Shown here: in pieces, positions 11,455 to 27,810 of the stretch
Position numbering within the stretch: the first letter of the stretch is position 1
How the letters are laid out: each line of letters begins with the position of its first letter
Assembly: GCA_945878525.1 (NCBI GenBank)
Contig: CAMCTU010000002.1
Location: 1 to 64,000 of the forward strand
Direction of reading: 5' to 3'
From: Sphingobacterium thalpophilum
GTDB lineage: Bacteria > Bacteroidota > Bacteroidia > Sphingobacteriales > Sphingobacteriaceae
DNA: 64,000 nucleotides
Made by a program: the position numbers and the translations under genes
Notes under the pieces: model-generated
The model's input: only the letters and a program-made list of their open reading frames with translations
Told to the model about the DNA's origin: nothing
Database searches by the model: none

Positions 11455-12420
11455 ATGAGAATAAATCACAAAATCTTCTTTATCAACTTGTTTTTTATAT
11501 TTATTGCAGCAAGGCTTTATGCACAAAATAATTCCTATAAAAGTGAATTTGGTTTCAGATCTGAAAATGATTCTTACCTGGCACAGGGGCAGGACAGGTA
11601 TTATACCAATGGACTTTCACTGAACTTCAGGTCTGCAGTTGATCAATCCACACTAAGGAATCCGAAATTAAATAAATTAATTTGGGAGATTGAAGCCGGA
11701 CAAAAAATATTTAATCCTCAATCAGGGAGTATATTGGATATTGATTTTATAGATCGGCCTTTCGCAGCTTACCTATATGGTGGCGCCGGAATCCATTTTC
11801 TTTATAATTCTGAAACTAATCTGAAATTAAGCCTTCAGGTAGGCACCGTTGGACCAGCTGCCAAAGGTAAAGAAGCTCAGGAATTCCTGCATAACAACTT
11901 TGGTTTTTATAAAATTGATGGATGGCAATGGCAGGTTAATAATGAAATAGGAATTAATTCTACCGTAGAATTCAATAAACTAATCAATAGATTGAGATCC
12001 GGGAAAACCGATTTTATCGTTAGTTCTTACCTCAATGCCGGTAATACCTTTGCAGGTGGTGGCGCAGGACTAATTTTCAGGCTGGGTGAAATAAATCCTC
12101 TGCATAGTTCTGCAATCAATCAAAGTACCATTTCCAATAATGCCAAAATCAAATCTGGAAAGGAATTTTTCTTCTATGCAAAACCAATGCTACATTTTAT
12201 TGCCTATGATGCAACCATTCAAGGTGGATTATTCCAAAATGACAAAGGAGCAGTGGTTTTTGATCAAAAACCTTTAGTTTTTAGTCAGCAGGCAGGAGCC
12301 ATCTTTTCTAAAAAAAGGTGGACAGTTGATTTTTCAGTGGTCTTTAAATCCAAGGAAATAAAAAGCTTTGCAAAACCTCATCAATACGGCTCATTCGCAT
12401 TATTATACCGAATGAATTGA
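11455..12420 (+). CDS. Lipid A deacylase LpxR family protein (DUF2219)
   Basis: Signal peptide; FRSENDSYLAQGQDRYYTNGLSLNF, GPAAKGKEAQEFLHNNFGFYKIDGWQWQVNNEIGIN, FAGGGAGLIFRLG. Confidence 0.85.
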   Translation: MRINHKIFFINLFFIFIAARLYAQNNSYKSEFGFRSENDSYLAQGQDRYYTNGLSLNFRSAVDQSTLRNPKLNKLIWEIEAGQKIFNPQSGSILDIDFIDRPFAAYLYGGAGIHFLYNSETNLKLSLQVGTVGPAAKGKEAQEFLHNNFGFYKIDGWQWQVNNEIGINSTVEFNKLINRLRSGKTDFIVSSYLNAGNTFAGGGAGLIFRLGEINPLHSSAINQSTISNNAKIKSGKEFFFYAKPMLHFIAYDATIQGGLFQNDKGAVVFDQKPLVFSQQAGAIFSKKRWTVDFSVVFKSKEIKSFAKPHQYGSFALLYRMN

Positions 12421-17747: not shown

Positions 17748-20700
17748 ATGCACAGACAATACGCAATTTTCATCCTTCTATTGACATTTTTCGCTGTTCC
17801 GGTAGTTGCTCAGAACACTGCCTGGATTGAAGTAAATCAGTTTTACAAAGGCGGTCTAGAACTATGGGATCAGGGTAAATATGCAGCCGCATCCCAGCAA
17901 TTCAGCCGTGCTGTTCAAACTAAACAGACAAGCTCTGTGCATGCAGAATCTAATTCTGAATTTAGTCTAATCAAAGAAAATTCTGAATTCTATATAGCGC
18001 TGTGTGCACTTGAATTAAATAACAGCGATGCAGAATCCTTGTTTAGCGAATTTATATCTAAGTTTCCTGCGAGCAATTATACAAAACTAGCTTATTACCA
18101 TTTGGGTAAATCCTATTTTTCAAGAAAGAACTATCCAAAAACCATTGAATGGTTCACAAAATTAGAAGGAAACAATATTTCCGGAAAGGAATCTTCAGAG
18201 TATAGGTATAAACTTGCATATTCCTATTTCGAGTTAAAAAATTATGATCAGGCAAAACCAATATTTGCTGAGTTAAGGAATGAAAAAACTACCTATAACG
18301 AACTTTCTATTTACTATTTTGCATACATTAGTTATCTTCAAAAAGATTATAAAACTGCATTAACTGAGTTTGAAAAGCTCAAGGGCTCAAAACCTTATGA
18401 AAGCAGCTATCCCTACTATATTTCTGCCATGTATTTTCTGGATCAGCGATATGATGATGTAATCAATTATGCTATCCCAATTTTAAAATCTACCAAACAA
18501 CTCTATGAAACAGAACTGTTTAGAATTGTAGGAGCTTCATTTTTTGCAAAGTCTGATTATATCAGCGCAGGTGCATATTATAAAGATTTTCAAAAAAATG
18601 ATCTGGGCAGAACCCAGAATAATCAGGACAATTACCAAATTGGTTATACCTGGTTTAAGTTAAAAGACTACAAGAATGCAATTATTGAACTGGAAAAGCT
18701 TGAAACAACAGATGAGTATTTTCAAAGTGGAATGATTGCATTGGGCGAATCCTTTCTCAAAACAAATAATAAACAAGGTGCCAGAAGTGCGTTTTTCAAG
18801 GCCTCTAGATTAAACCTGGATAAAAAATTACAGGAAGAAGGATTGTTCAATTACGCTAAACTCTCTTATGAACTTGATTTTCATCAGGTTGCTTTAGATG
18901 CAACCCAGCTATTCATAAAAACATATAGCTATTCAGTTAAGCTGGATGAAGCAAAAGTACTGCTAGGAGAAATCTTGCTAACTACAAAAAATTATAAGGA
19001 TGCTATCGATATCCTTGAGAGTATTCCCAACAGAAACCGTGAAGCAAATGGAGTATACCAAAAAGTTACCTATTTCAGGGGACTTGAATTTTACAATGAA
19101 CGTGCCTTTCAGAATGGAATATCTATGTTCATGCGCTCAAATACTAATGTTGTTGATAAAGAAATTCATGCCTTGTCTACCTATTGGCTGGCAGAAGCGA
19201 TGTACGAAGTAAGGAAGTTTGGAGAATCTGTAGACAACTTTGAAAAGTTCATGAACTTACCGGCTGCAAAACAAACCGATGTTTATAATTTTGCACATTA
19301 TGCCCTGGCTTATGCAGCATTTGAACATGAAAACTACAGAAAAGCAGCAACATACTTTAAGCGTTTTTTGCAGGGGAATGAAAAAGATATAAATACAATC
19401 AATGATGCTGTACTTCGATTGGCAGACTCATATTTTGTTTTGAAAGATTATAATGACGCCATTGGATACTACGATCGGATTGTCTCCTATAAAACCTCAA
19501 GTGAGGATTATGCAATGTTTCAGAGAGGTATGATTCAGGGCTTGCAGGGACAGAATGATTTAAAGATTGTAACCCATCAATCACTTCTTCAGCAATTTCC
19601 AAAATCTAATTATTCTGATGATGCTGGATTTGAAATAGCCTATACTTATTTCATTAAAGGTGATTACGAAATTGCAAAAACTGACCTGAGTGCTTTAATA
19701 GAAAAATATCCCAGAAGCAGTTATGTGCCCAGGGCACTATTCACAATTGGTCTGGTTGAGCTGAATCAGGATCAGGAAGAATCAGCATTAATAACCTTTA
19801 AGCGTGTGATTAGTGAATACTCAACTACTGATGAAGCTAAGCTGGCGCTTGAGTCAATCAAGAACATTTACCTGCAAAGATCTGATGCAGCAGGATTTCT
19901 GGACTATGCAAACAGTACCAGTATTGGAAACTTAAGCGCTTATGAACAGGATTATATCACCTTTCAAGCTGCAAATAACCGCTTTTTAAATGGTGATTAT
20001 CAGGGTACATTTGAGTCGGTGAATGCTTATTTTGATAAATTTCCAAAAGCTGCACATGATAAACATGCAAAATTCATCAGAGCTGAAAGTCTGGTAAGAT
20101 TAAAACGACCAGATGAAGCCATTCCAGATTATGAATATATTCTAAATGATTGGACAAGCGATTATACCGAAAGGGCTCTAATGAGTATTGCCAAAATTTA
20201 CATCTCACAAGAAAAGTATAATGAAGCTGTTGTACACCTCAAAAAGCTGGAATTAACCTCAGAGTATAAATCAAATTACAATTTCGCCGTTAATAATTTG
20301 ATGGAAGCATATGCCAGCATGGGTTTACCTGATGAGACCCTTAAATACGTCAAATTCATCAGAGAATCAGAAAAATCATCTGAAGAAGATATTTTAAGAG
20401 CTGGGCTATATGCTGGAAAGGCAAATCTGATAATTGGTGATACCATTGAGGCTGTTAAAGAAATAGAGTTAATTGCAGACAGTACCCAAACTGTTACCGG
20501 TGCAGAAGCGAAATATCTTTTAGCAGAATTACAGTATAAAAAACAAGAATTTAAAAAATCACTAGCTACCGCATTTGATTTGACTAATAAAATGCCATCC
20601 CATGATTATTGGGTTGCCAAGACCTATATCCTCATTGCTGATAATTATGTTGCCATGAAGGATATTTTCCAGGCGAAGAGCACACTTCAAAGTGTAATTG

Positions 20701-20780
20701 AAAATTATGAGGAGAAGGAAGATGGCATTCTTTTGTTGGCTAAAGAAAAGTTGGATTCACTGAATAAACGCGCTAAATAA
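17748..20780 (+). CDS. Large exported tetratricopeptide repeat protein (1010 aa)
   Basis: Signal peptide; many TPR/Sel1-like repeats (FPASNYTKLAYYHLGKSYFSRKNYPKTIEWF..). Confidence 0.9.
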   Translation: MHRQYAIFILLLTFFAVPVVAQNTAWIEVNQFYKGGLELWDQGKYAAASQQFSRAVQTKQTSSVHAESNSEFSLIKENSEFYIALCALELNNSDAESLFSEFISKFPASNYTKLAYYHLGKSYFSRKNYPKTIEWFTKLEGNNISGKESSEYRYKLAYSYFELKNYDQAKPIFAELRNEKTTYNELSIYYFAYISYLQKDYKTALTEFEKLKGSKPYESSYPYYISAMYFLDQRYDDVINYAIPILKSTKQLYETELFRIVGASFFAKSDYISAGAYYKDFQKNDLGRTQNNQDNYQIGYTWFKLKDYKNAIIELEKLETTDEYFQSGMIALGESFLKTNNKQGARSAFFKASRLNLDKKLQEEGLFNYAKLSYELDFHQVALDATQLFIKTYSYSVKLDEAKVLLGEILLTTKNYKDAIDILESIPNRNREANGVYQKVTYFRGLEFYNERAFQNGISMFMRSNTNVVDKEIHALSTYWLAEAMYEVRKFGESVDNFEKFMNLPAAKQTDVYNFAHYALAYAAFEHENYRKAATYFKRFLQGNEKDINTINDAVLRLADSYFVLKDYNDAIGYYDRIVSYKTSSEDYAMFQRGMIQGLQGQNDLKIVTHQSLLQQFPKSNYSDDAGFEIAYTYFIKGDYEIAKTDLSALIEKYPRSSYVPRALFTIGLVELNQDQEESALITFKRVISEYSTTDEAKLALESIKNIYLQRSDAAGFLDYANSTSIGNLSAYEQDYITFQAANNRFLNGDYQGTFESVNAYFDKFPKAAHDKHAKFIRAESLVRLKRPDEAIPDYEYILNDWTSDYTERALMSIAKIYISQEKYNEAVVHLKKLELTSEYKSNYNFAVNNLMEAYASMGLPDETLKYVKFIRESEKSSEEDILRAGLYAGKANLIIGDTIEAVKEIELIADSTQTVTGAEAKYLLAELQYKKQEFKKSLATAFDLTNKMPSHDYWVAKTYILIADNYVAMKDIFQAKSTLQSVIENYEEKEDGILLLAKEKLDSLNKRAK

Positions 20781-22459
20781 TGAATTTCAATACATTAAAA
20801 TATAGTCTGCTTCTAAGCTTATTTAGTTTGTCTGTTTTGACCAATGCACAGGTAAAAAACGATCAGAATCCTCCTGCACAGCAAGCAGCAGCGGGTGGAA
20901 CATTGTTGGAAGAAATAGAAGTTGTCAGACCCTATAAACCTGTTCTTGCAGATGCTGTTAAAATAAGAAGAAATCCTGACATGAATACGGTGGCAGCATT
21001 TAAGCCAGTACTTACCTACAATATCATTGATAAAAAACTGGATTTAAATACCAATATAAAAGAATTACAAGCTCAAAAAATGGCAGATGAGCAGCCTGTC
21101 ATACTTGGCAATAATTATTTAAAAGCTGGTGGCGGTAATTTCAATACTGCATTAGGTGAGATCTATATCAGTACCGGAAGAGATGAAGCCCTTCAAGCCG
21201 GTGCTTTTATTAAACATCTTTCACAAAAAGGCAGTATGGAGTTACAGCAATTTTCAAGACAGGAGCTCGGTTTGTTTGGGCGTACAATTACTGATGATTA
21301 TTCCTTGAGTGGAAAATTAATTTACGACAGAAATGCCAGTAATTTCTATGGCTTTGACCCGCTGTCTTCAGTTGCTACCGATATGAGCAAATTACAATTC
21401 AGCACAATAGGTGGTGAAGCTGAAATTGTGAGCAGTTATTCCGAAACAAACACTTTCAATTATTTTGCAAATATCAATGCCTATCAGTTCAGTAATATTG
21501 AAGATGCCCGCGAAAGTTCAGTATTACTCAGAGGATCGCTTAATAAGGTAGTAAAACAATCAAATATTGGCGTTAATGCCTCCATAGATTTAACATCAAC
21601 AAAAGACCAGGCTTATCAGATAGGAAACAATATCCTGCGAGCCAACCCCTACCTAAAACTAAAGGCTAAAGGCTTTAATCTTGATCTTGGAGTAAATATA
21701 GTTCAGGAATTTGGAACTCAGACAAGACTTAATATTTTACCTGCAGTTTCTGCAGAACTGCCAATTATACCTGGATATGCTACCCTATTTGCCGGTGTAA
21801 ATGGAGATGTGTTAAAAACAAGTCTTAGAGATCTTGCCTTTGAGAATCCTTACCTGAATAAAAACATCGCAATCAAAAATTCTCTGGAGAAAATGAATAT
21901 TTATGGTGGATTAAAAGGGAATGCCAGTGCCGAATTCGGATACAAAATAATGGCCTGGTACAAAACAGTAAACGATCTCCAATTATTTGTAAACAGCCAG
22001 GCTCTAACAAACAGGTTTGAAACAGTTTATGACAATGGACAAAGTAATATTTTAGGGGTTGAAGGTGAAATCAATATTAAAGCATCAGAATTTCTAAATC
22101 TAAATGGCAAAGCCCAGCTGTTAAATTATACATTGGCTTCAGAAAAAGCAGCCTGGTTTAAACCTAGTTTCCGACTGATGTCTAATGCTAAGCTCCAGAT
22201 TGACAGAAAGGTAATAATTGATGCTGAAGTATTATTTCAAGATAATGTTTATGCAAGGGTAAATAAAACACCGGGAACATATAATTCCAGAAGCATAGAC
22301 GGCTTTATTGATCTGAGTGCGGGTGCAGAATACAAAGTAAGTAGTAAAATCGGTGTTTATATTCGTGGAAATAATCTGATTGGAAAGCAATATCAAAGAT
22401 TTCTTTATTATCCAAGACTGGGAATGAACGTTTTAGGCGGGGTTAACTATGCATTCTAA
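20780..22459 (+). CDS. Outer membrane beta-barrel protein (TonB-dependent-receptor-like, no evident plug domain)
   Basis: Signal peptide, EEIEVVRPYKPVLADAVKIRRNPDM segment, alternating beta-strand pattern, aromatic C-terminus (MNVLGGVNYAF). Confidence 0.75.
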   Translation: MNFNTLKYSLLLSLFSLSVLTNAQVKNDQNPPAQQAAAGGTLLEEIEVVRPYKPVLADAVKIRRNPDMNTVAAFKPVLTYNIIDKKLDLNTNIKELQAQKMADEQPVILGNNYLKAGGGNFNTALGEIYISTGRDEALQAGAFIKHLSQKGSMELQQFSRQELGLFGRTITDDYSLSGKLIYDRNASNFYGFDPLSSVATDMSKLQFSTIGGEAEIVSSYSETNTFNYFANINAYQFSNIEDARESSVLLRGSLNKVVKQSNIGVNASIDLTSTKDQAYQIGNNILRANPYLKLKAKGFNLDLGVNIVQEFGTQTRLNILPAVSAELPIIPGYATLFAGVNGDVLKTSLRDLAFENPYLNKNIAIKNSLEKMNIYGGLKGNASAEFGYKIMAWYKTVNDLQLFVNSQALTNRFETVYDNGQSNILGVEGEINIKASEFLNLNGKAQLLNYTLASEKAAWFKPSFRLMSNAKLQIDRKVIIDAEVLFQDNVYARVNKTPGTYNSRSIDGFIDLSAGAEYKVSSKIGVYIRGNNLIGKQYQRFLYYPRLGMNVLGGVNYAF

Positions 22460-22504: not shown

Positions 22505-23563
22505 ATGGAAATCGGGCTTTACATCGCAGAATTGTTAGGTGAACAGGATGAGGTAAGCGTCATCGGTTTGGGAACTTTTACCAAAGAAAGGATCGCTGGT
22601 AAATTTGATAAAAGTAGCAATCAATTCTATCCTCCTTCTTATCACTTATCATTCAAGGAAAATACGTTTATCTTCTCTGGATTAAGTGAGTATATAAGTC
22701 TGAAGAGAAGTCTTAGTATCTATTCATCAGAAGAATTGATCAAAAATTTTACAGAAACAATTCTGGATATCCTGAATAGCTCAGATACTGTTGAAATAAA
22801 TCATTTGGGCAGCCTTCATAAGGAAAATAACCATTTGACATTTAAGCAATCAGAAAGTTTTGGAATTGTAGACAAATTTTATGGACTAAAACCAATTTCT
22901 GAACTTAAAATAGCACCTATTCCTTCTTCAAATCAAAAAATCTTAACAGATGATGCGGTAAAACCTTTTCAGGTCGAAGAAGATGAACTAGATGAAGAAA
23001 TTTATTTTGATGCGCCAAAAGCCAGACTTCTGCCTATTCTGATAATCAGCATTCTTGCTATTTCTGGCTCACTCTTTTCATTATATTTTTTTGATCAGGA
23101 TTTTAATCAATTTATAAGGAATACCCTCTCGCCTAAAGTCACTCCCTCAGCTCCTTTTGAACCTGTAAAAACTTTAATTCCGGTAACTGCAGATTCATTA
23201 ACTACCAAACCGGCGGTAACTGATAGTGTTGCAGTAACTAATGATAAAAATCAAGAAATTGTACAAAAAGAAATTCCAAATAAACCCGTTGAAGTTTTAA
23301 TTGAAGAAAAAGTTCCTTCAAATAATGAAGGGCTTAGCTATGAGATAATTGTTGCTGCATTTGCAAGAAAAAAAGATGCAGAAAGCTATATAATCGAGAT
23401 GAGTTCAAAAGGTTATAAAGCAAAAATTGTTGAGAACCTACCAGGGAAAATGATGAAAATCAGTTTGGGTTCATTTACAGAAGAAGAATCTGCAAACACT
23501 GAACTTAAACAGATTCAAAAAAATATCAATAAAGATGCCTGGATAGCCAGAGTTAAACCGTAA
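22505..23563 (+). CDS. HU-CCDC81-like N-terminal domains + TM + SPOR domain protein
   Basis: N-term IGLYIAELLGEQDEVSVIGLGTFTKE...; TM LLPILIISILAISGSLFSLYFF; C-term SPOR YEIIVAAFARKKDAESYIIEMSSKGYKAKIVE. Confidence 0.85.
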   Translation: MEIGLYIAELLGEQDEVSVIGLGTFTKERIAGKFDKSSNQFYPPSYHLSFKENTFIFSGLSEYISLKRSLSIYSSEELIKNFTETILDILNSSDTVEINHLGSLHKENNHLTFKQSESFGIVDKFYGLKPISELKIAPIPSSNQKILTDDAVKPFQVEEDELDEEIYFDAPKARLLPILIISILAISGSLFSLYFFDQDFNQFIRNTLSPKVTPSAPFEPVKTLIPVTADSLTTKPAVTDSVAVTNDKNQEIVQKEIPNKPVEVLIEEKVPSNNEGLSYEIIVAAFARKKDAESYIIEMSSKGYKAKIVENLPGKMMKISLGSFTEEESANTELKQIQKNINKDAWIARVKP

Positions 23564-23576
23564 AAAATCCATAAGA

Positions 23577-24275
23577 ATGTTTCTACTGCAAATTGACACG
23601 TTAAACCCTGTAGCTGATGCTGCAGCATCAACCATTCAAACAATGCCAACAAATGAAGAATTAAGATTCATTGAGTTACTGTTCAAAGGGGGCTGGGTTA
23701 TGGTACCGCTCGCGCTTCTGGCCTTTATGGGTCTGGTAATTTTTATGGAGCGTTATTTTACCATTCGTAAAGCTTCTAAAAACGAAATGAACCTCATGTT
23801 ACAAGTCAAACAGAGTGTAAAATCTGCTAAACTTGATTCAGCTCTAGCCATTTGCAGAAACAGCAATACGCCATTGGGAAGAATGCTTGAAAAAGGCCTG
23901 TTACGAATAGGAAGACCAATTAAGGATATTGAAGGTGCTATTGAAAATGTTGGAAAACTTGAAGTTTCAAAACTTGAGAAAAATATAAGCATACTCGGTA
24001 TCATTGCAGGTATTGCCCCAATGCTTGGTTTTGTGGGTACTATCATTGGTGTTATTACCATATTTCACGAGGTTTCAGTAAAAGGAATCATTGAAATTGG
24101 AACTATTTCTGGTGGACTATATGTAAAAATGATTACTTCAGCCACCGGACTGATTATCGGTATCATTGCTTATGTGCTTTACCATATATTGAACATAATG
24201 GTAGACCGTATCATCCTGAAAATGGAAACTGATGCAATTGAATTTATTGACTTATTAGAGGAGCCGGGTAAATGA
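23577..24275 (+). CDS. MotA/TolQ/ExbB proton channel family protein
   Basis: GGWVMVPLALLAFMGLVIFMERYFTIRKA; IAGIAPMLGFVGTIIGVITIF; ATGLIIGIIAYVLYHIL. Confidence 0.93.
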   Translation: MFLLQIDTLNPVADAAASTIQTMPTNEELRFIELLFKGGWVMVPLALLAFMGLVIFMERYFTIRKASKNEMNLMLQVKQSVKSAKLDSALAICRNSNTPLGRMLEKGLLRIGRPIKDIEGAIENVGKLEVSKLEKNISILGIIAGIAPMLGFVGTIIGVITIFHEVSVKGIIEIGTISGGLYVKMITSATGLIIGIIAYVLYHILNIMVDRIILKMETDAIEFIDLLEEPGK

Positions 24276-24670
24276 ATTTAAGAAAACGTCAAAGAGGGAA
24301 CGTTGAAGTCCACACCTCAGCATTAAATGACATCATGTTTTTCCTGCTGTTATTCTTCCTGCTGGCTTCAGCAGTTGCAAACCCCAATGTGGTCAAATTA
24401 TTTTTACCACGTTCAAATTCCGGACAATCCATTCCACAGAAAACTATTAATGTCTCAATAACAAAGGATCTGGAGTATTATGTAGAGAAAAAACAAGTGG
24501 ACGCAGCAAATCTGTTTCAAAGCATAGAAACTTATCAAAAGGCAAACCCAGATTTAACCATAATACTCTATGCTGACCGTACCATAGCGATTGAAAATGT
24601 AATCGAATTGACTGATATTGCTAATAAACTGAAGGTAAAACTTGTTTTAGCGACAGAAACAAAAAAATGA
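24272..24670 (+). CDS. ExbD/TolR biopolymer transport protein
   Basis: VHTSALNDIMFFLLLFFLLAS with conserved Asp; periplasmic domain; ATGA overlap with TolQ-like gene. Confidence 0.92.
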   Translation: MNLRKRQRGNVEVHTSALNDIMFFLLLFFLLASAVANPNVVKLFLPRSNSGQSIPQKTINVSITKDLEYYVEKKQVDAANLFQSIETYQKANPDLTIILYADRTIAIENVIELTDIANKLKVKLVLATETKK

Positions 24671-25488
24671 TTGAATACCGCCGAAAAGAAGAAAACAATT
24701 ATCCAAAAGCATATGCCATTTCTACAGGTATAATGCTTGCTTTTTTGGTGATAAGCTACTTTATTGTTGCCAGCCGTGTTGAACCGGATACAGGTACCGG
24801 AGGAATAATTGTGAATTATGGAACTTCTGAATTTGGCATGGGCGACGACTATATGAGCGTTGAAGAGCCTTCTACCTCGCCCGACGCTAATCTTACATCA
24901 CCGGATAAGGTGATCATAGAGAATACCACTTCAAACGAATCCAATTCTGAAATTTCAGATAAAACAATTGCTACTCAGGATAATGAAGAAGCTCCAGAAG
25001 TTATAACAAAAGAAAAAAGTAGTACCAAAGCACCGGCAATAACAACTCCTGCTAAAGATAACAAACCCGTTGTTAATCAAAATGCCTTGTACAAAGGCAA
25101 GAAAAATGATGGCTTAGGGAAGGGTGATGGTACGGGCACAGTTGCAGGAAACCAGGGAAGTACCAATGGCGACCCTTTGTCGCCTGATTATGGTGAGGGA
25201 GGTTCAGGAAACGGGCCATATAGTCTGGATCTGAAAAGTCGCAGATTCACAAATCTTACCCCACCTAAGGATAATGGTCAGAAATATGGCCGAGTTGCTG
25301 TACGGATATTTGTAGATAAAAACGGAGTGGTTGTAAATGCAATTCCTGGGGTTAAAGGCACCACCTTGTCGGATAAAGATATCTGGGAAAAATGTCGCCT
25401 AGCAGTAATTGGATCTTCTTTGAACAAGCTGGAATCGGCCCCAGAAGTTCAGATCGGAGTGGTGATGTTCAACTTCAAGGTAAAATAA
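24667..25488 (+). CDS. TonB/TolA-like energy transducer protein
   Basis: Single N-terminal TM, Gly/Pro/Lys-rich linker, TonB-like C-term GRVAVRIFVDKNGVVVNAIPGVKGTT; ATGA overlap. Confidence 0.8.
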   Translation: MIEYRRKEENNYPKAYAISTGIMLAFLVISYFIVASRVEPDTGTGGIIVNYGTSEFGMGDDYMSVEEPSTSPDANLTSPDKVIIENTTSNESNSEISDKTIATQDNEEAPEVITKEKSSTKAPAITTPAKDNKPVVNQNALYKGKKNDGLGKGDGTGTVAGNQGSTNGDPLSPDYGEGGSGNGPYSLDLKSRRFTNLTPPKDNGQKYGRVAVRIFVDKNGVVVNAIPGVKGTTLSDKDIWEKCRLAVIGSSLNKLESAPEVQIGVVMFNFKVK

Positions 25489-26970: not shown

Positions 26971-27810
26971 ATGATAAGTTTCACTCAAAATTTATACGGG
27001 AAACAATGGCTGGATCTTGTATTCAAAAATCGTAACAAGGCCTATGGTGCTTATGAATTGAGAAAGAACAGTGCTGCAACTACTGTTAAAGCTTTCTGTT
27101 ATGCAGCCGGATTCTTCTCTATTCTGGTAATTACACCCTGGCTCATTCATGTGCTATCCAAAACTAATCTGGTCGCAGGGAATTATGAACAGGTAAAGAT
27201 CATCGAAGTTAATCTTCTTTCCAGAATTAAGGAGGTAAAACCTGAAAAACAGCCAATTACAAAAACTCCATCTAAACCAGTACAGCAAAAAAGTGTTCAG
27301 TATGCAAAGATGAATGTAGTTCCTGCAAATCAGGCAGAATCAGATATTCCCACAAAAGAGCAGTTGAATGAGGCTGTAATCGGTATAACAAATAGTGATG
27401 GAGAGGAGCGTTTAAATTTAGACCCAATTGATATTCAGGAAATTGGTCCTGTCATGACAGGAAATCCGACTTCAACTGCCGAAAACATGGAACTCCATAC
27501 CTTGGATGGCATTGAAAACTATCCAGAATTTCCCGGTGGTCAATCAGCATTCATTAAATTTCTAAGCAGGAACTTAAAATACCCTGTAATTGCAGTTGAA
27601 AAGGGAATTGAGGGAAAAGTTCTGGTAAGTTTCATTATAGAAAAAAACGGCCGGCTTTCAAACATCAAAATCCTTCGTGGAATTGGATATGGCTGTGATG
27701 AAGAAGCAATCAGAGTGCTTGAAAAATGTCCTGAATGGAAACCGGGTATTCAGAATAAGCAAAAAGTGAGGGTAGCCTATACACTACCCATTAATTTCAG
27801 CTTGCCTTAA
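26971..27810 (+). CDS. TonB family energy transducer
   Basis: QNLYGKQWLDLVFKNRNKAYGAYELRKN N-term; C-term FPGGQSAFIKFLSRNLKYPVIAVEKGIEGKVLVSFIIEKNGRLSNIKILRGIGYGCDEEAIRVL TonB domain. Confidence 0.93.
   Translation: MISFTQNLYGKQWLDLVFKNRNKAYGAYELRKNSAATTVKAFCYAAGFFSILVITPWLIHVLSKTNLVAGNYEQVKIIEVNLLSRIKEVKPEKQPITKTPSKPVQQKSVQYAKMNVVPANQAESDIPTKEQLNEAVIGITNSDGEERLNLDPIDIQEIGPVMTGNPTSTAENMELHTLDGIENYPEFPGGQSAFIKFLSRNLKYPVIAVEKGIEGKVLVSFIIEKNGRLSNIKILRGIGYGCDEEAIRVLEKCPEWKPGIQNKQKVRVAYTLPINFSLP

Follow-up and report, generated by a model that had tools for sequence, protein, structure and literature searches.

A giant tetratricopeptide repeat protein and a plug-less outer-membrane barrel encoded with a Ton/Tol-type motor across Bacteroidota

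Here we describe a gene cassette in a stretch of 64,000 nucleotides from Sphingobacterium thalpophilum (assembly GCA_945878525.1, contig CAMCTU010000002.1, positions 1 to 64,000), referred to below as the window. Six consecutive genes encode a secreted giant tetratricopeptide repeat (TPR) protein, an outer-membrane barrel protein, a membrane protein that combines HU domains with a SPOR domain, and a TolQ-TolR-TonB-type motor set. That the TPR-barrel pair and the motor set make up one machine is well supported by the comparisons presented here. The features are as follows (window coordinates; pLDDT, predicted local distance difference test):

17748..20780, + strand: secreted giant TPR protein, 1010 amino acids (open reading frame; Sec signal peptide ending ...VVAQ)
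20780..22459, + strand: plug-less outer-membrane barrel protein, 559 amino acids, related to TonB-dependent transporters (open reading frame, fold and profile; signal peptide ending ...TNAQ)
20852..21100, + strand: predicted disordered periplasmic tail of the barrel protein, residues 25-107 (AlphaFold2 pLDDT <50)
20906..20965, + strand: conserved tail motif LEEIEVVRPYKPVLADAVKI, residues 43-62, TonB-box-like (invariant residues, TonB-box scoring)
21101..22456, + strand: barrel domain, ~22 strands, residues 108-559 (AlphaFold2, Foldseek)
22505..23563, + strand: inner-membrane protein with two N-terminal HU domains (CCDC81 type), one transmembrane helix and a C-terminal SPOR domain (HU-CCDC81_bac_1 E 1e-8; SPOR PF05036 E 2.3e-7)
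23577..24275, + strand: TolQ/ExbB-type motor subunit (MotA_ExbB E 1.5e-21)
24272..24670, + strand: TolR/ExbD-type motor subunit (ExbD E 1.1e-22)
24667..25488, + strand: diverged TonB/TolA-type transducer, 273 amino acids (in-register alignment with TonB_C proteins at the same operon position)

A preliminary description of this locus had reported an exported 1010-residue TPR protein overlapping a 559-residue barrel protein by one nucleotide, and the open reading frames, signal peptides and repeats were all confirmed: the TAA stop of the TPR gene (20778-20780) shares its last base with the ATG of the barrel gene (20780-20782; TAATG). The same description had taken this overlap as a sign of fixed stoichiometry. 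We dropped that argument, since among near relatives only the closest share the one-base overlap and the spacing varies from -59 to +60 bases (mostly 0 to 18) in 78 gene pairs of near relatives, the most negative values of which may reflect upstream start choices. Tight overlaps recur in other classes.

The repeats of the TPR protein (Pfam TPR_6, E 3e-36) are of the YbgF/CpoB kind (NCBIfam TIGR02795, E 1e-59, 200 bits against a cut-off of 90.1), whereas the CpoB equivalog model reaches only 52.8 bits against a cut-off of 383. The AlphaFold2 model of a relative carrying the homologous C-terminal three quarters of the protein is a continuous helical-repeat solenoid, and a structure search with the TPR model returned generic helical-repeat proteins only.

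The distribution of the pair was assessed across 248 genomes sampled from the phylum, 62 of them from the class of the window genome (families are labelled f2 and so on). By its nearest named relatives, the window genome falls within Daejeonella (Sphingobacteriaceae). The barrel is present in 61/61 genomes of the family Sphingobacteriaceae and in 151/151 of the order sample, and both genes occur in all 62 class genomes. The preliminary description had proposed to look for co-occurrence across Bacteroidota, and this search came out in favor of the pair: in 61 of the 62 the two genes share a strand, with the TPR gene upstream of the barrel gene at a distance within 1.4 kb and either adjoining it or separated from it by a single small gene, and in the one exception (G237) both genes are kept but apart. 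Throughout the phylum, TPR homologues at E<=1e-20 were found in 181/248 genomes (many full-length), and the barrel gene directly follows the TPR gene in lineages outside the class as well. The class-wide TPR alignment contains no stretch conserved enough for a contig scan. Three different, unrelated small genes are found between TPR and barrel in some lineages (L116:6498-7358, L117:7326-7706 and L112:6673-7161).

The preliminary description had also called the barrel plug-less, and this holds. The Pfam scan of the barrel protein gave no match of note, and the Pfam Plug domain matched 36 other places in the same genome but not this protein. In the AlphaFold2 model (64 sequences) residues 108-559 form a barrel of ~22 strands at high confidence, preceded by a disordered N-terminal part (residues 17-107, pLDDT <50). 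A standard TonB-dependent receptor with plug is thereby ruled out by the Pfam result together with the disordered N-terminus. The nearest folds in Foldseek are the TonB-dependent transporters FpvA and BtuB (E 7e-20 to 1e-18), and a profile built from 34 members of the family hits a ferric enterobactin receptor in its C-terminal barrel (E 2.7e-7). It seems that a former nutrient gate has here become an anchor.

The N-terminal segment EEIEVVRPYKPVLADAVKIRRNPDM, earlier singled out as distinctive, sits inside the disordered tail and has a core, R-x-Y-x-P-x-L-x-x-A (R50, Y52, P54, L56, A59), that is invariant in family alignment A1. The window tail gives a TonB-box match (LEEIEVVR) at p=0.034, and the tails of four relatives from other classes contain the TonB-box-like LPDFVITG or LPEFVITG (p=0.001-0.035).

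With its motor, putative TonB_C-type transducer, barrel fold and, in some lineages, TonB-box-like segment, the cassette resembles the TonB system (BtuB, FpvA). It might be argued that it takes up nutrients in a TonB-dependent manner, with a partner such as the TPR protein providing the plug in trans, and both the importer fold of the barrel and the TonB-box-like tails of some lineages would suit this idea. However, the barrel is a near-universal core gene, usually in single copy, rather than part of an expanding receptor family; it lacks the plug and a substrate partner, with no SusD-like or surface partner near it in the loci compared; and in many lineages it has an HU/SPOR neighbour. We consider such an importer very improbable.

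In the HU/SPOR protein encoded downstream of the barrel, the HU folds (CCDC81 type) face the cytoplasm and the SPOR domain the periplasm. SPOR domains bind septal peptidoglycan, and a link between nucleoid and septal wall is a possible role of this protein. Across lineages a SPOR domain is present in 25/32 of the proteins that follow the barrel, usually with HU domains N-terminal to it. The TolQ and TolR proteins of the window score under the TolQ/TolR equivalog cut-offs (NCBIfam). The genome has exactly one other ExbB, on another contig, and as this belongs to an ExbB-ExbD-ExbD set, the cassette motor is a second, separate motor of the genome.

The transducer (24667-25488) has no Pfam match, TonB_C included. 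In six genomes outside Bacteroidia, the protein at the equivalent position scores above the Pfam threshold for TonB_C, and the window transducer aligns in register with these proteins. We rely on this cross-lineage alignment, as a profile-profile link between the transducer and a free-standing TonB of the window was not significant. The latter (26971-27810, TonB_C E 2e-20) directly follows folC, has no motor genes to itself and was detected at this place in only 1/80 related loci.

The earlier suggestion that the pair belongs with the SPOR, TolQ, TolR and TonB genes gains from two observations, the recurring gene order and the retention of the motor and an HU/SPOR-type protein where the locus is split. 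The order TPR-barrel-SPOR-TolQ-TolR-TonB is found in 74/80 Sphingobacteriaceae loci (most of the others are on short contigs), and the full six-gene order also occurs in families f8, f9 and several other classes. Where the locus is split or reduced (families f2-f7, f11 and f23), a motor copy and an HU/SPOR-type protein are present elsewhere in 18/18 genomes tested. In those genomes this motor copy is 36-48% identical to the window TolQ, against <=34% for further copies; TolR comes next after it, followed in most by a TonB-type gene.

Covariation of evolutionary rates was evaluated for 36 gene pairs using pairwise distances among 51 non-redundant Sphingobacteriaceae loci, after removal of the component explained by housekeeping neighbours. 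The highest residual covariation of the 36 pairs is that between TPR and barrel (0.77), which supports co-evolution of the two, though it does not prove it. Other residual correlations are 0.59 for TolQ-TonB, 0.55 for TPR-TolQ and 0.50 for TPR-TonB. As the value for TPR-barrel is clearly above those of either gene with the motor genes (0.28-0.55), and the motor lies elsewhere in families f3-f7 and f11, the pair might be a complex of its own, adjacent to the motor through operon history, with the motor serving other receptors. Yet other classes show the complete gene order again, and the motor copy is distinct from the ExbB-ExbD-ExbD set of the genome, so that we regard an independent pair as improbable.

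A further observation concerns an extra gene (828-908 amino acids) in at least 5 genera, in which the signal peptide and tail of the barrel protein are joined to TPR residues ~256-1010. Copies are present at L047:5496-7979 and in L048, L049, L195, L205 and L236-L242; in Parapedobacter soli (L047) the fusion lies between the TPR and barrel genes, in other genomes elsewhere. The fusions form one clade (support 93/82; the tree row TPR_L205 is in the wrong reading frame and should be disregarded) and retain the tail motif. The arrangement in Parapedobacter soli would fit an origin by tandem duplication and internal deletion. Retention of this natural fusion suggests that the tail and the TPR repeats are able to function next to each other. 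The fusion, like the phylum-wide distribution, the kinship with TonB-dependent transporters and the HU domains, goes beyond the preliminary description.

Combining these results, we propose a force-transducing machine of Ton/Tol type with the plug-less barrel as its outer-membrane end, located at the septum via SPOR and acting as a counterpart of Tol-Pal; in our judgement the case for this reading is evenly balanced. The inner-membrane TolQ-TolR motor would convert proton motive force into movement of the TonB-type transducer, which in turn would engage the outer-membrane module. Here the barrel, derived from the TonB-dependent transporter fold, would serve as an anchor instead of a gated importer, and the giant TPR protein as periplasmic adaptor. 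The likely docking site is the disordered barrel tail with its TonB-box-like motif, and the HU/SPOR protein would target the whole assembly to denuded septal peptidoglycan. Its task would probably be to draw in the outer membrane and keep it in place while the cell divides, as Tol-Pal does elsewhere; we give this division role about as much chance of being right as of being wrong.

In comparison with Tol-Pal (TolQ, TolR, TolA, TolB, Pal, CpoB/YbgF), the cassette has in common the proton motor, the transducer, a TPR protein with repeats of YbgF type, a peptidoglycan binder and a likely septal role. It differs in its outer-membrane partner, which is a 22-strand barrel, in its peptidoglycan binder, which is the inner-membrane SPOR protein, and in the length of the TPR protein (~4x that of CpoB). 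Neither a TolB propeller nor a Pal-type OmpA lipoprotein is encoded in the cassette (OmpA domains are present elsewhere in the genome), and a Pfam search found no TolB_N domain in this genome. Because TolB and Pal are missing on the one hand and the plug on the other, the cassette is neither a Tol-Pal nor a TonB-dependent transporter system, but belongs to the Ton/Tol superfamily in the wider sense. According to PMC12204202, Bacteroidetes have no identifiable tol-pal loci, and PorE has been proposed instead as the tether between outer membrane and peptidoglycan. PorE is likewise a candidate answer to the missing Tol-Pal, yet of a different nature: a single lipoprotein, known from type IX secretion, that combines CpoB-, TolB- and Pal-like domains and is not a motor cassette (PMC12204202).

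A different possibility is an energised outer-membrane exporter or flippase, in which the barrel would be the pore, the TPR protein would bring a surface lipoprotein, polysaccharide or lipid to it as substrate, and the motor would drive passage. A plug-less 22-strand barrel would make a wide pore, and exopolysaccharide exporters (AlgK-AlgE, PelB, PgaA, BcsC) are likewise built from a periplasmic TPR protein and an outer-membrane barrel. Moreover, the route by which Bacteroidota export surface lipoproteins is, to our knowledge, not settled. In contrast to those exporters, the cassette has a proton motor, and its barrel is related to importers, with FpvA and BtuB rather than AlgE or BcsC as best matches. 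In the loci compared, the cassette is not accompanied by any glycosyltransferase or substrate gene, and SPOR is a frequent neighbour across classes. We therefore look upon an exporter as possible, though unlikely.

Several observations weigh against the Ton/Tol-type machine proposed above. The pair lies away from the motor in many lineages, with families f3-f7 and f11 keeping only the pair together, and family f23 has the TPR gene at one locus and barrel, HU/SPOR, TolQ, TolR and TonB at a second. In family f17 (small genomes) no TPR-protein match was present among the matches listed, unlike most of the phylum. Rate covariation is inflated by long alignments (whose distances are less noisy), which favours TPR and barrel. 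The tail of the fusion is disordered in AlphaFold2 with only two alignment rows covering it, and hence carries little weight. TonB-box scoring of the tails is not significant in most Bacteroidia, and for this reason the motif merits the label TonB-box-like, no more. Finally, the septal role has the SPOR domain as its sole basis, and SPOR proteins serve other uses too.

Taking the force-transducing machine one step further, the cassette might represent a third Ton/Tol branch that joins nucleoid (HU), motor, septal peptidoglycan (SPOR) and outer membrane, and would couple chromosome clearance to outer-membrane constriction across Bacteroidota; this extension is speculative and has, in our view, a small chance of being correct. 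Our literature search, with most subscription papers and preprints (which may mention single components) outside its scope, found no description of the cassette.

Elsewhere in the window, a homologue of the LpxR-type outer-membrane lipid A deacylase (E 7e-71) is encoded at 11455-12420, upstream of rpsA; it is present at this position in about a quarter of the related loci.

Bacteroidota are the dominant bacteria of the gut and of many soils and waters. The cassette provides a concrete, near-universal gene set with which to address how they draw in and stabilise the outer membrane at division. If the proposed machine is true, it would add a third use of Ton/Tol motors and may offer a possible phylum-specific drug target.

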